Assembly (NCBI GenBank): GCA_022563855.1
Contig: JADFMN010000006.1
Location: 1 to 64,000, forward strand
Reading direction: 5' to 3'
From: Armatimonadota bacterium
Lineage (GTDB): Bacteria; Armatimonadota; Fimbriimonadia; Fimbriimonadales; Fimbriimonadaceae
Length of the DNA stretch: 64,000 nucleotides
Shown: positions 2,597 to 9,270 of the stretch, in pieces
How positions within the stretch are numbered: the first letter of the stretch is position 1
Layout of the letters: each line of letters starts with the position of its first letter
The notes under the pieces: model-generated
The model's database searches: none
Seen by the model: only the letters and a program-made list of their open reading frames with translations
Told to the model about the DNA's origin: nothing
Translations under genes and position numbers: made by a program

Positions 2597-4408
2597 CTAC
2601 TTCATCTCCTCGATGATTGCGGCCTGGTCTTCGGTGACCGGGATCTTGGGGATCTGCTCGACGTGCATCGCGCCGTCGACCTTGCGTATCAAAGTGTTTA
2701 CGCCGCCTTGCTGCTCGTCCTTGTCGGGGTAGTCCTCGCGGAAGTGGCCGCCGCGGCTCTCTTTGCGCATGAGCGCGCTGAGGGCGATCGTCTCTGAGAT
2801 CGTCAGAAGGTGTTCGAGGTCGAGCGCGGTGTGCCAGCCGGGGTTGTAGTCCCGGTTGCCGGTGATGGAGGCCTTCCTTCCCCGTTCGCGGAACTCGGCG
2901 ACCTTCGGGGCCACCTGCCGCATATCGTCCCCGTTGCGCACGATGCCGACCAGCTCCTGCATCGTCTTTTGCAGGTCTTCCTGGACACGGAACGGGTTGT
3001 CGTCGTTCGGCTCGCGGTCGAAGGGAGCCAGAGCGAGCTTGGCGGCGTCGTCGGCCTGCCCCTGGTCCAGTGAGACGTCGCCGTTGTTCTTCGCGTACTC
3101 CGCGGCGTGCTCGCCAGCGCGCTTTCCGAAGACGAGCAGGTCTGAGAGCGAGTTGCCGCCGAGGCGGTTGGCGCCGTTCAGCCCCGCCGCGCACTCGCCG
3201 CAGGCGAAGAGCCCTGGGACGGTGGACAGCTGCGTGTCGCCGTCCACGCGCACGCCGCCCATGATGTAGTGGCACGTCGGGCCGACCTCCATGACGTCCT
3301 GGGTGATGTCGACGCCCGCAAGCTCCTTGAACTGGTGGTACATGGAGGGGAGCTTCTTCTTGATGTGCGCGGGCGCGTCCTTGATGTGCTCCTTGATCCA
3401 GGCGATGTCGAGGTAGACGCCGCCGTGCGGCGACCCGCGCCCCTCCTTCACTTCGCGGACGATGGCGCGCGCCACGTGGTCGCGCGTGAGCAGCTCCGGT
3501 GGGCGGTGCGCATCCTTGTCGCCGATGACATACCGCCAACCCTCGTCCTCGTCTTTCGCGGTCTGGTTCTTGTACATCTCAGGGATGTCGTCGAACAGGA
3601 ACCGCTTGCCCTCGCTGTTGCGCAGCACGCCGCCTTCGCCGCGCACTCCCTCGGTGACGAGGATGCCGCGCACCGACGGCGGCCAGACCATACCGGTCGG
3701 GTGGAACTGGATGAACTCCATGTCTAGCAGGTCTGCGCCCGCATGGTAAGCGAGCGAGTGGCCGTCGCCCGTGTACTCCCAACTGTTCGAGGTGATCGCG
3801 AACGCCTTGCCGATCCCGCCCGTTGCGAGGATGACCGCCTTCGCTTTGAACACGACGAACTTTCCGTGCTCGCGGTAGTAGCAGAAAGCGCCGGCGACCC
3901 GGCCGCCGTCCGTCAGCAGCGTAACGACCGTGCACTCCATGTGAAAGTCGATGCCCTGGTGGATGCCGTGGTCTTGCAGCGTGCGAATCATCTCGAGGCC
4001 TGTGCGGTCGCCGACGTGCGCTAGCCGCGGATAAGCGTGGCCGCCGAAGTTGCGCTGCAGGATTCTGCCGTCCGGCGTGCGGTCGAAGAGCGCGCCCCAT
4101 TTCTCGAGCTCCAAGACCCGGGCAGGCGCCTCCTTGGCGTGGTGTTCGACCATGACGGGGTTGCTCATGTACTGCCCGCCGCGCATGGTGTCTGCGAAAT
4201 GAACGCGCCAGTTGTCGCGGTCGTCTACGTTGCCGATCGCCGCCGCCACCCCGCCCTCGGCCATCACCGTATGCGCCTTTCCAAGAAGCGATTTGGAAAC
4301 GACACCGACCGAGACTCCTGCCGCAGAGACCTCGATCGCGGCTCGCAGGCCCGCGCCGCCCGCGCCGATGATCAGCACGTCGTGCTCGATGGTCTTGTAG
4401 TCGGCCAA
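2597..4408 (-). CDS. sdhA: Succinate dehydrogenase flavoprotein subunit
   Basis: 603 residues, the usual length. It oxidises succinate to fumarate in the TCA cycle and feeds electrons through an Fe-S subunit to quinone at the cytoplasmic membrane. The FAD motif GAGGAG is at residues 15-20 and the covalent-FAD histidine is expected at H46 in KAHTVMAEGG. Also seen are FHPTGMVWP, the RGEGG active-site loop, CHYIMGGV and the NRLGGNSLSDLL motif. The start codon is TTG (4408-4406), directly after the TAA of the membrane-anchor gene, which implies translational coupling. No SdhB gene lies downstream; the strand ends in repeat DNA. Confidence 0.96.
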   Translation of the reverse strand: MADYKTIEHDVLIIGAGGAGLRAAIEVSAAGVSVGVVSKSLLGKAHTVMAEGGVAAAIGNVDDRDNWRVHFADTMRGGQYMSNPVMVEHHAKEAPARVLELEKWGALFDRTPDGRILQRNFGGHAYPRLAHVGDRTGLEMIRTLQDHGIHQGIDFHMECTVVTLLTDGGRVAGAFCYYREHGKFVVFKAKAVILATGGIGKAFAITSNSWEYTGDGHSLAYHAGADLLDMEFIQFHPTGMVWPPSVRGILVTEGVRGEGGVLRNSEGKRFLFDDIPEMYKNQTAKDEDEGWRYVIGDKDAHRPPELLTRDHVARAIVREVKEGRGSPHGGVYLDIAWIKEHIKDAPAHIKKKLPSMYHQFKELAGVDITQDVMEVGPTCHYIMGGVRVDGDTQLSTVPGLFACGECAAGLNGANRLGGNSLSDLLVFGKRAGEHAAEYAKNNGDVSLDQGQADDAAKLALAPFDREPNDDNPFRVQEDLQKTMQELVGIVRNGDDMRQVAPKVAEFRERGRKASITGNRDYNPGWHTALDLEHLLTISETIALSALMRKESRGGHFREDYPDKDEQQGGVNTLIRKVDGAMHVEQIPKIPVTEDQAAIIEEMK

Positions 4409-5998: not shown

Positions 5999-6440
5999 TC
6001 GGGAGAGCGAGCTGTCATCCTGAGCGAGCCTGTCCTGAGCGGAGACGAAGGAAAGGACCTCGCGAGCCGCGATATCGCAGGCACCGCCTCGGATGCTCAC
6101 GGGCTGTCGCGCCGTTCGCCTTTGTGATCGAGGGTCGATGGTCGAGTGACGACCGATGAATCGGCTCGTCTTGCAGTGTCAGCCGAAGGCAAGAGTCAGA
6201 ATCGCGAGTCAGCGCAGCCAGCGACACGTCCGAGGGATGAGTGCCGAGTGCTGAGCGATGAACGAGGGTGACCAATTGGCGACAGCGAAGCGGACGACCC
6301 ATCCATAGCTCGGGCTCACGGGCTGTCGCGCCGTTCGCCCTCGAGGAACGGGGATCTAGGGTCAAGGGCTGAAAGAGCGTCGCAAGAGGTGCGACGGTTG
6401 AGGGTCGCGGCCAATCCCCTTCCCCAGGCCTCTTCGATTT
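5999..6440 (+). repeat. Repeat-rich intergenic region
   Basis: No convincing gene. From left to right it holds a long-form hairpin core (about 6012-6059), the right 67-bp repeat (6053-6119), a heptad tract of GTGCTGA type (about 6239-6262), a GGCGACAGC word (6277-6304), the CTCACGGGCTGTCGCGCCGT word (6315-6337) and a GGGTCAAGGG-type word near 6360. Confidence 0.8.
6053..6119 (+). repeat. 67-bp direct repeat, right copy
   Basis: Partner of 5306-5372 with one mismatch, on the far side of the 178-residue gene. It is preceded here by the long form of the hairpin core word. Confidence 0.9.
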
Positions 6441-6497
6441 TGCGTGATCAAGTTCGACGGCGAGTCGCTTGGAATGCGTCCCGACGTAGCCGAACAA

Positions 6498-6608
6498 ATG
6501 AAGGAGAGCAACGGCGCGGCGGTCGAAGTCGTGGACGGGCTGGAAAGCGTGTCGAGCGTTGACATGGCAGGCGTGCGTCCAATGTTCTGCAACGACTCCA
6601 TCGCCTGA
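6498..6608 (+). CDS. Tiny ORF, homologous to the one at 7554
   Basis: 36 codons from ATG (54 if the in-frame GTG at 6444 is used). Its product shares VVDxLxSVSSxDxAxVRxxF with the 39-residue ORF at 7554-7673, about 16 identities in the first 30 aligned positions starting at Met. Many of the nucleotide differences are synonymous third positions (GTC/GTT, GTG/GTC, TCG/TCC, CGT/CGC), which supports translation. The two ORFs bracket the Fer2-cyclase gene. No strong ribosome-binding site is seen. Function unknown; a small partner or regulator of the cyclase is possible, as is a decayed duplicate. Confidence 0.45.
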   Translation: MKESNGAAVEVVDGLESVSSVDMAGVRPMFCNDSIA

Positions 6609-6629
6609 GCGAGCGGTATGCTTGCCGCC

Positions 6630-6643
6630 GGAGGCGAAGGATT
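6630..6643 (+). promoter_or_regulatory. Shine-Dalgarno pointing to an ATT start codon
   Basis: GGAGG at 6630-6634 is followed after 6 nt by ATT (6641-6643), in frame with the complete ferredoxin domain. The ATG at 6618 is in another frame. Confidence 0.5.
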
Positions 6644-7531
6644 CCCCGCATCGAGTACAGCGACGGTCAGGTGGTCGAAGCCTTCGAGGGCGAGTCGGTC
6701 CTTGAGGCGTCGATCCGCAACGGCATCGACCACCTTCACGCCTGCGGCGGGAACGGGCGCTGCACGACCTGCCGCATCGGGATCGTCGAGGGCCGCGAGT
6801 TCTGCCCAGAGCCTGAGCAGGCGGAAGTCGAGGCGCTCGCACTCCGAGGGCACGATTCCAAGACGCGGCTCGCCTGCCAGCTTCGCCCGACAGGGCCGAT
6901 CAAGGTCTGCTGCCTGCTCGCCGAGCACCCCGAGCACCGTCCGATCCTCGCCGAAGGCATGGCCTACGAGAGCGAGTTGGCCGTGCTCTTCACCGACCTC
7001 AGGGACTTCACGCCGTTCGCTGAGAGGAGCCTTCCTTTCGACGTCGTCCACCTGCTGAACCGGTTCTTCGACCGCATAGGCACGATCGTGGAGGCGAACC
7101 ACGGCCAGATCGTCGCGTTCCTCGGGGACGGGGCGCTCTGCATATTCGAGGACGAGGACCATTGGTCCTCGTCTGCCAGAGCGGTGACGGCGGGGCTGCA
7201 GATCGTCGAAGCTGCGGAGGTCTTCTCCAAGTATTCTCTGCCAGAATTCGGCTATGCCACGCGCACCGGGGTAGGAATCGCTTTCGGCCGCGCGGTCATC
7301 GGCAAGATCGGCTATTACAACCGCTCGTCGGACAACATCGTCGGCGACGTTGTCAACACAGCCTCGCGGATCCAGGACGAGACCAAGCGCGCGGGAGTGC
7401 CGCTGCTTGTCGAAGAGGCGGTCATGCACATGACGCGGGACCGGTTCGAGTACGTCGAGTGCTGCGAAGCGGAGCTGAAGGGCAAGTCGTGCACCCTCAA
7501 GCTGTTCTCGATCAAGGTCGCGGGCTCTTAG
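6641..7531 (+). CDS. [2Fe-2S] ferredoxin-class III nucleotide cyclase fusion
   Basis: About 296 residues. Residues 1-90 form a plant/adrenodoxin-type ferredoxin domain with ligands C35, C41, C44 and C79 (CGGNGRCTTC, then LACQL). Residues about 108-296 are a class III adenylate/guanylate cyclase with metal-binding VLFTDLRDF, FLGDGALCIFED and the NIVGDVVNTASR segment. Such fusions are thought to couple redox or iron state to cNMP synthesis. The first ATG/GTG/TTG in frame is GTG 6671, which would cut off the first ferredoxin strand (PRIEYSDGQ). An ATT at 6641, 6 nt after GGAGG (6630-6634), gives the full domain, so I propose ATT initiation. Start uncertain, domains sure. Confidence 0.85.
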   Translation: MPRIEYSDGQVVEAFEGESVLEASIRNGIDHLHACGGNGRCTTCRIGIVEGREFCPEPEQAEVEALALRGHDSKTRLACQLRPTGPIKVCCLLAEHPEHRPILAEGMAYESELAVLFTDLRDFTPFAERSLPFDVVHLLNRFFDRIGTIVEANHGQIVAFLGDGALCIFEDEDHWSSSARAVTAGLQIVEAAEVFSKYSLPEFGYATRTGVGIAFGRAVIGKIGYYNRSSDNIVGDVVNTASRIQDETKRAGVPLLVEEAVMHMTRDRFEYVECCEAELKGKSCTLKLFSIKVAGS

Positions 7532-7553
7532 AGGACGGGCCGGCACCACGCAA

Positions 7554-7673
7554 ATGCAAGAGCGCAAGAACGCGACGCTCAAGGTTGTCGACCGGTTGCA
7601 GAGCGTGTCCAGCTTTGACATTGCGAAGGTGCGCGAACTGTTCGATGTCTGGCCCAACGTCAGGCGCTCCTGA
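7554..7673 (+). CDS. Tiny ORF, homologous to the one at 6498
   Basis: 39 codons. It begins MQERKNATLKVVDRLQ and shares the VVDxLxSVSSxDxAxVR core with the ORF at 6498-6608. It starts 22 nt after the cyclase stop and could be co-transcribed with it. No recognised family. The pattern of synonymous differences to its partner argues for a real small protein, but it is short and lacks a clear ribosome-binding site. Confidence 0.45.
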   Translation: MQERKNATLKVVDRLQSVSSFDIAKVRELFDVWPNVRRS

Positions 7674-7713: not shown

Positions 7714-9270
7714 ATGGGATTGACGCAGAGACTTGTCAAAGTTCAAGGAGCCGTCCGGCGATTTATACCGCAGCTGGTCGGTTATCTGTGGGTGCCAGCA
7801 CTCCTCACGTTTTTCATTTCTGAGATAGGATGGGTGCCCTTCGAGTCTGTGCCGGGATTCCTGTTAGCAAGGGGGCTTCAGCCCTGGCTCATGCTGATGT
7901 TCGTGACGTCGCTGCTGTTCATGGCAAGCGTAAAGAAGGACACCAAGTTTTCGAACTGGCTCTCGCTGCTGACTTGGATCTCCGTGTTGGGAGCGTTCTC
8001 GCTCTGGCTGAGCGGCGTGGGCTGGCTGCCGAACGCGATGCAATTCATCGACGCAGACAGCTTGAGCAACTTCGACTATGTATACATTCTCTTGCTTCCG
8101 CTCGAGGCGCTCGATCTTCGCCTGATGCTGGTCATGGCCCTCGCGATGTGGTTGCTCGCTCTTCACAGGACGGGCGACAGCGATGGCGCTCATCCTATCG
8201 GAGGAAGATGGCGTCCGGTGTATGGTTGGGCGTTGGCCGTTTTCCTCGCGATGTTGCTGGAACAGTACAACATCTTCGACCACTTTTCCCTGTTGCTTGG
8301 TTGGACGGGGTCTGTGGAGGTCCTAGGATCGGACGCCTCGGAGTGGTTTGAGCGAGCCAACTACTATCGCGATTTTATCCCGAGTGTCGTTGTGTCACTG
8401 TCAGTTCTCATCATTCCCTTCTTCGTTGCTGCATGGAAGACTTGCGCGACGTTGGCCTTGAGTCCTGACCGAATGACCGTGGGGCTTGGGCGCGGGCTGC
8501 CTCTCTTTAGCGTTAAGTGGCGAAACGTGCTCAGCGTCAAAGAGCTGAGAACGCCTGGGAAGCCCGGTGCCTTCATTGTTGAGCACGGTGTCCTGCCTTG
8601 GTACAGGTTTCGGTTTGGATTGAGCAAGCGGCGCGATGGAGAAGCGACTGTTCATGCTCTGCTGAATATGTGCGAAGGCAAACGCCGGGTCGTGCGCGTG
8701 CGGAGGTACACGGACGCGGTGGGCTGGGCGCTAGTCGTTTTTTCGCTGGGCTGCATGATTGCGATGCAGAAGCTCATCAACTACTCCTTCGGGCTGATCG
8801 CTGCAGCCTCAACCGACTTGCCGCGCGTCTTCGAGTCAGCCGGCTACTTCCGGGAGCTGGCGATACTTGAATTCGCCGCGGCCCTGTTCTTTGGTCTAGG
8901 GGTCGGGCTGCTCTTCGCCCGCAACTATGGGGGGCTGCGGCTATGGCCGATCATCGGTGTCGGTGTAGGAGCCGGGATCATGCCAGGCACAACGATCGTC
9001 AGCCTCGTCTACATCGCGATCTATGCGATCCTTCTTTCTCGACTGGGGCCTGTGGAGCCTGTGCCACACTTGGTTTTCCCCGATCCTCTCTATACTCTCC
9101 AGATCCTTTGGGTCGATTCTCACACTGTTCAAATCGCCGTCGCCGCGTACGTTGTGGGAACACTGCTATCCGTGCGGCCTTGGTACAGCGCTCTTCCGTC
9201 ATGGCCGTACCGGTGGCGACGAGCCGATACGGAGTTTGTCAAGTTAGCCGAGACAGTGTCGGGTAACTAA
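7714..9270 (+). CDS. Hypothetical polytopic membrane protein
   Basis: 518 residues, not recognised. About ten hydrophobic segments: roughly residues 22-45, 55-72, 82-108, 122-150, 168-188, 215-245, 335-360, 385-405, 412-445 and 475-490. A hydrophilic loop at about 245-333 probably forms a cytoplasmic domain (ALSPDRMTVGLG, KWRNVLSVKEL, a PH- or YcxB-like strand pattern). GGGGA just upstream of ATG 7714 may serve as ribosome-binding site. No operon partner is evident: the tiny ORF lies 40 nt upstream and an oppositely oriented gene follows. Confidence 0.6.
   Translation: MGLTQRLVKVQGAVRRFIPQLVGYLWVPALLTFFISEIGWVPFESVPGFLLARGLQPWLMLMFVTSLLFMASVKKDTKFSNWLSLLTWISVLGAFSLWLSGVGWLPNAMQFIDADSLSNFDYVYILLLPLEALDLRLMLVMALAMWLLALHRTGDSDGAHPIGGRWRPVYGWALAVFLAMLLEQYNIFDHFSLLLGWTGSVEVLGSDASEWFERANYYRDFIPSVVVSLSVLIIPFFVAAWKTCATLALSPDRMTVGLGRGLPLFSVKWRNVLSVKELRTPGKPGAFIVEHGVLPWYRFRFGLSKRRDGEATVHALLNMCEGKRRVVRVRRYTDAVGWALVVFSLGCMIAMQKLINYSFGLIAAASTDLPRVFESAGYFRELAILEFAAALFFGLGVGLLFARNYGGLRLWPIIGVGVGAGIMPGTTIVSLVYIAIYAILLSRLGPVEPVPHLVFPDPLYTLQILWVDSHTVQIAVAAYVVGTLLSVRPWYSALPSWPYRWRRADTEFVKLAETVSGN

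Follow-up and report, generated by a model that had tools for sequence, protein, structure and literature searches.

An anchorless [2Fe-2S] ferredoxin-class III cyclase gene from a Fimbriimonadaceae genome and its probable AUU start codon

A reading frame in which a [2Fe-2S] ferredoxin is fused to a class III nucleotidyl cyclase, and which has no canonical start codon at its expected N-terminus, raises the question of where its translation begins and what kind of enzyme it encodes. The frame is found in an Armatimonadota bacterium (Fimbriimonadaceae; assembly GCA_022563855.1), on the forward strand of contig JADFMN010000006.1, positions 1-64,000 of which make up the window analyzed here. Its coding features are:

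6563-7531, + strand: open frame, preceded by TGA 6560-6562 and ended by TAG 7529-7531
6641-7531, + strand: anchorless [2Fe-2S] ferredoxin-class III cyclase gene, 296 codons and a stop when read from its probable start
6647-6913, + strand: ferredoxin domain (Pfam PF00111), its limits taken from modelled strands (residues 3-91)
6965-7513, + strand: class III cyclase catalytic domain, its limits taken from modelled strands (residues 109-291)

Pfam recognizes Fer2 (PF00111, 1.2e-10) followed by Guanylate_cyc (PF00211, 5e-17, spanning 6971-7489), and cysteines 35, 41, 44 and 79 are arranged as C-x5-C-x2-C-x34-C, which bears out the fusion described in the first-pass annotation. The ferredoxin domain is similar in sequence and cysteine pattern to the adrenodoxin/ISC-type ferredoxins (TIGR02007; PDB 1i7h), but it is fused to a cyclase and its TIGR02007 score of 40.1 bits is below the NCBIfam cut-off (132.1). 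In the profile search, cyclases and ferredoxins were matched as separate chains among the best 60 of 101 matches. The catalytic domain carries the class III signature, with two metal-binding aspartates (D119 and D163) and an N-x3-R motif (N239, R243). When the protein was aligned with eleven other fusions (n = 12), the four cysteines, both metal aspartates and the arginine were conserved in all twelve sequences and the asparagine in eleven. The AlphaFold2 model (23 alignment rows; mean pLDDT 89.2, pTM 0.69) matched class III cyclase catalytic domains in the PDB by Foldseek (3r5g, 1wc1, 2w01 and others, TMt 0.81-0.88; 0.84-0.88 for the 3r5g and 1wc1 chains), and no ferredoxin-cyclase was named in the best 50 of 1020 matches.

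In class III cyclases, a purine-selecting pair made up of K with D or T corresponds to adenylate, and E with C to guanylate. The pair found here, A159/N232, is neither K/D, K/T nor E/C, so the substrate is not predictable from the sequence. The rule is not followed by every fusion in the 12-member alignment either, as K occupies the first position in only two of them (L065 and L072).

The fusion of a ferredoxin with a cyclase is already known, and the anchorless form is a variant of it. The same order of Fer2 and class III cyclase is found in CyaC from Sinorhizobium meliloti, a class IIIb adenylate cyclase that is 38.9% identical to the present protein over 98% of the latter. CyaC has a 6TM domain that binds two heme B and makes its activity redox sensitive, and its [2Fe-2S] cluster is named in a figure legend of the same article (PMC10463352). 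A cluster of 30 class IIIb cyclases in which a ferredoxin separates the membrane and catalytic domains has also been described; their anchors resemble the cytochrome b of fumarate reductase/succinate dehydrogenase (PMC4821796). The protein studied here differs from CyaC in its lack of the 6TM diheme-B anchor, in its purine pair (A at the K position of CyaC and N at its T position) and in its apparent ATT start. Since the frame opens only 26 codons before this ATT and contains no 6TM SdhC-like diheme-B anchor with signature histidines, the protein was not classed as a CyaC-type membrane ferredoxin-cyclase. It is closer in architecture to five anchorless Fer2-cyclases, namely WP_245126431.1 from Hymenobacter volaticus (L066), two proteins from the phylum genomes G210 and G211 (L034 and L035, respectively) and those of R. 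gallicum (L071) and R. etli 8C-3 (L095). As here, the first purine position is neither K nor E in any of these five; the second is T in four of them and N in the present protein.

Some of these homologues carry additional domains: the ferredoxin-cyclase at L034:1456-3153 is extended C-terminally by a heme peroxidase domain, and those at L071 and L095:2477-3856 by a Rieske domain. Judging from their sequences, the extended proteins form a modular redox-cyclase group. A literature search, with most subscription journals outside its scope, found no report of a class III adenylate cyclase with both ferredoxin and Rieske domains.

The distribution of the full-length fusion is sparse. It was detected in at least 3 of 291 genomes of the phylum (the present one, G210 and G211) in a survey that scored up to 8 candidates per genome, among which full-length matches rank at the top. 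The present genome is the only carrier among 61 near kin, 38 of which have some cyclase or ferredoxin match. A search of genome contigs for orthologues gave a single locus, matching residues 110-282 only. Among 72,556 plasmid records, 166 had a match with at least 80% coverage (E up to 1e-25), 141 of them from Rhizobium. Nine plasmid loci were inspected by eye: the N-terminal part is long and hydrophobic in six (L065, L067-L070 and L072), and no such part is present in the other three (L066, L071 and L095).

The start-like codons in frame between 6563 and 6673 are CTG 6587, CTG 6605, ATT 6641, ATC 6650 and GTG 6671; no ATG, GTG or TTG lies upstream of GTG 6671 in the frame scanned from 6563. 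The elements relevant to initiation are:

6630-6634, + strand: GGAGG, candidate Shine-Dalgarno (SD) sequence, spacing 6 to ATT 6641
6641-6643, + strand: ATT, the most likely start codon, with no canonical in-frame start upstream and close to the position of the homologues' nearest ATG
6618-6620, + strand: ATG, out of frame, but in frame with the gene if CCCC 6644-6647 carries a one-base indel
6671-6673, + strand: GTG, rival start at residue 11, which removes residues 1-10 (strand 1) and has no SD
6650-6652, + strand: ATC, a competing start three codons 3' of ATT; its AGGA core (6638-6641, spacing 8) is weak

Translation probably starts at ATT 6641. The placement of this codon six nucleotides 3' of GGAGG, as reported in the first-pass annotation, was verified in the sequence. 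GGAGG followed by an ATH codon at 5-9 nt arises in 538 of 100,000 random 36-codon stretches drawn from part of the genome (0.5%), and 3 of 316 sampled genes, the ferredoxin-cyclase gene included, have such a codon ahead of their first canonical start. SD cores of at least 5 nt at a spacing of 4-11 precede 95 of 4736 internal in-frame ATG, GTG or TTG codons (2.0%) and between 22 (first start) and 37 (best start within the first 150 nt) of the 316 gene starts. SD use is thus weak in this genome, so that the GGAGG before ATT 6641 amounts to modest evidence and, alone, to no proof. These statistics come from a custom-built gene finder, as does the coding boundary, which codon usage places at 6650, that is, 5' of GTG 6671. 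The gene has a codon-usage score of +66.0 and the 26 in-frame codons before ATT (6563-6640) score -9.1; codon usage in this upstream part looks non-coding.

The starts of the five anchorless homologues (L034, L035, L066, L071 and L095) were compared by counting from the nearest ATG to the first-turn residue aligned with D8. All five have an ATG just before strand 1, whereas the present gene has none there. The distances are 14 residues in L034, 14 or 7 in L035 (two ATGs), 9 in L066 and 8 in both L071 and L095; from ATT 6641 it is 7. Further canonical codons exist 5' of these ATGs (a GTG 3 codons away in L034, 82 in L035 and 11 in L066; GTG and TTG in L071; a GTG 4 codons before the ATG, then a stop, in L095), and only the start of L066 has been annotated by others (RefSeq), those of the other homologues being our own reading. 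By this reading, since the nearest ATGs lie 7-14 residues before the first turn, the relatives appear to start at the position of the ATT or slightly before it, and none after. The comparison of orthologue starts proposed in the first-pass annotation therefore did not place the start elsewhere.

Non-canonical starts of this kind have precedents. infC starts at ATT in E. coli and at ATC in Streptomyces, where sigR, a redox-response gene, has a GTC start and is repressed by IF3 (PMC5472188). The present gene would share with the infC-type AUU/AUC/AUA starts and the GTC of sigR a non-canonical initiation codon, but it encodes a cyclase. The infC gene of the same genome (L112:1462, C3:188671) apparently starts at ATA: this codon is preceded by AGGAG at 7 nt and followed 15 codons later by the INER-like motif; the sole canonical codon is an ATG that abuts the motif and lacks an SD. 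Among 21 infC genes (loci L103-L123; 13 from the family and 8 from the order), eleven have no ATG, GTG or TTG before the INER-like motif (G002, G003, G006, G008-G012, G041, G043, G044), five have a canonical codon only at the motif (G000, G001, G005, G040, G042) and five have one further upstream (G004, G007, G037, G038, G039). In the family and order, infC thus seems to start at ATA, or in some cases at ATT or ATC, with a Shine-Dalgarno sequence.

AUH initiation as a general habit of the genome was rejected on the SD counts over 938 predicted genes (1.264 Mb). Strong SD cores near gene starts precede ATG in 87 of 1025 cases, GTG in 40/621 and TTG in 31/505, compared with 3.5% for all codons; the values are 20/359 for ATT, 28/899 for ATC and 8/230 for ATA, a slight excess for ATT and none for the other two. 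AAA (28/418) takes the second rank, above GTG, which again indicates that the SD signal is weak in this genome. In 36 of the 938 genes the coding boundary has no canonical start close to it; of the six inspected in more detail, five look like selenoprotein candidates and one seems to start at ATA or GTC. The selenoprotein candidates (L075, L079, L134, L149 and L150) have an in-frame TGA at a redox cysteine and look by eye like three TlpA-like proteins, one peroxiredoxin-like and one AhpD-like; a tRNA-Sec is encoded at L168:1497-1590 (Rfam 74.2 bits; ARAGORN anticodon tca). A HAD-like gene at L085:13413 (IAEVKALIFDFDGLI, named by eye) has no canonical start nearby; its candidates are a GTC, or an ATA that follows AGGAG by 8 nt and overlaps the preceding frame's stop codon. 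In an SRPBCC-like gene (by eye) on the reverse strand (L079:10004-10618), the coding signal extends about 93 codons 5' of the first canonical start, for which an ATC start or a frame break is possible.

The ATT start, as the first-pass annotation proposed it, thus draws support from the SD, from the ATG positions of the homologues and from the ATA of infC in the same genome; it is not proven, and an indel could join ATG 6618 to the frame. In that scenario, a base would be missing from CCCC 6644-6647, either by assembly error or by a real -1 frameshift, and the protein would begin MLAAGGEGF-PRIEYSD. With 15 residues ahead of the first turn, its start would be near those of L034 and of L035 read from the outer ATG (14), and the codons between 6618 and 6641 score slightly positive in the ATG frame (+1.0). 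Nevertheless, ATG 6618 has no SD upstream and a homopolymer of four bases is short. Moreover, coding signal above threshold 5' of the first canonical start was seen in only 2 of the 316 sampled genes, both of them readable as non-canonical starts, though an indel is possible there, so that frame breaks look rare. The scenario is therefore unlikely.

Slightly less likely again is a start at GTG 6671, with a protein whose ferredoxin fold has lost strand 1 or manages without it. This codon is the nearest canonical start in frame and retains all four cysteines, so that the earlier claim that the complete ferredoxin domain is reachable only from ATT holds for residues 1-10 and not for the cluster ligands. 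The related claim that the GTG removes the first strand agrees with the AlphaFold2 model, in which the first ten residues have a pLDDT of 92 and strands 1 and 2 correspond to residues 3-6 and 11-13; since GTG 6671 is residue 11, strand 1 would be lost. The GTG has no SD to support it, residues cover strand 1 in all 10 other aligned fusions, and the codon signal has already begun at 6650.

The gene could also be a decaying remnant that has lost its anchor and its start, in keeping with its single occurrence among near kin, its A/N purine pair and the diverged repeats on both flanks. Yet its 296 codons are intact with a strong bias (+66.0), the cysteines and catalytic residues are retained and anchorless forms exist elsewhere, which makes decay improbable. 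A start at ATC 6650 has the AGGA core at spacing 8 and coincides with the codon-usage boundary, but the core is the weaker one, 4-nt cores precede 383 of 4736 internal start codons (8.1%), and such a start would cut into modelled strand 1 (residues 3-6); it is very improbable. An extension upstream through CTG 6605, CTG 6587 or readthrough of TGA 6560 would find the frame open back to 6563 and a tRNA-Sec in the genome, but neither CTG has an SD and the -9.1 of the intervening codons makes it barely credible.

With the AUU start retained, the explanation that we favor, with somewhat more confidence than doubt for the whole of it, is that the gene product is a class III nucleotidyl cyclase of about 296 residues that is soluble, forms a homodimer and has the N-terminal adrenodoxin-type [2Fe-2S] domain as its sole input domain. 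The GGAGG would direct initiation to AUU 6641, six bases downstream of it. Electrons passed to or taken from the cluster, or loss of the cluster, would alter how the ferredoxin domains pack on the catalytic dimer and, in turn, how fast the cyclic nucleotide is formed, as in CyaC except that the quinone-responsive heme anchor is absent. Redox gating seems reasonable by analogy with CyaC, although the redox sensitivity of the latter is ascribed to the heme-B anchor that is absent here. The analysis gave no sign of the iron gating that the first-pass annotation also suggested; its proposal that the ATT start could limit cyclase synthesis is conceivable. More speculatively, and with rather low probability, the AUU start may place synthesis under the activity of IF3, like the GTC of Streptomyces sigR, while the redox state of the cluster would set activity and the A/N pocket the product. 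RNA folding at the start is neither unusually open nor structured (6606-6680, z = 0.26). The wider interval 6600-6750 has a z of -2.15, and the hairpin 6669-6735 is internal to the gene; an RNA-structure mechanism was rejected.

In CyaC, the co-occurrence of the heme anchor and the [2Fe-2S] cluster makes their inputs hard to separate, and an anchorless form of 296 residues would allow the iron-sulphur input to be studied alone in solution. If the AUU start is real, the few genes that have an AUH start would gain a signalling enzyme, and annotation limited to ATG, GTG and TTG would put its start at GTG 6671.

The gene is flanked by two short frames, each containing one copy of a repeat:

6444-6608, + strand: 54-codon ORF with repeat copy 1 (6495-6587), no NCBIfam match
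7536-7673, + strand: short downstream frame with repeat copy 2 (7551-7643), no NCBIfam match and no start asserted

The two copies are identical at 66 of 93 nt (71%, E 1e-14) and their mismatches are distributed as 13/3/11 over the codon positions, a pattern that would agree with coding use. A two-row profile of the repeat matched only the present genome among 85 genomes of the family (E up to 0.01). The copies, one on either side of the cyclase, suggest a duplication at this locus. Further upstream, identical 26-nt direct repeats occur at 6095-6120 and 6314-6339, 219 nt apart. The window also contains sdhA (succinate dehydrogenase/fumarate reductase flavoprotein, 2597-4408) without an adjoining sdhB. 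No sdhB above the family cut-off was found in this genome and one is present in 15 of 15 relatives searched; gene loss, an assembly gap or a misassembly are alternative explanations. Downstream of the cyclase, 7714-9267 encodes a 518-residue protein that is membrane-like by eye and has no Pfam or NCBIfam match, with a 38% paralogue at C14:35663-37111 and weak kin in 2 of 20 relatives.
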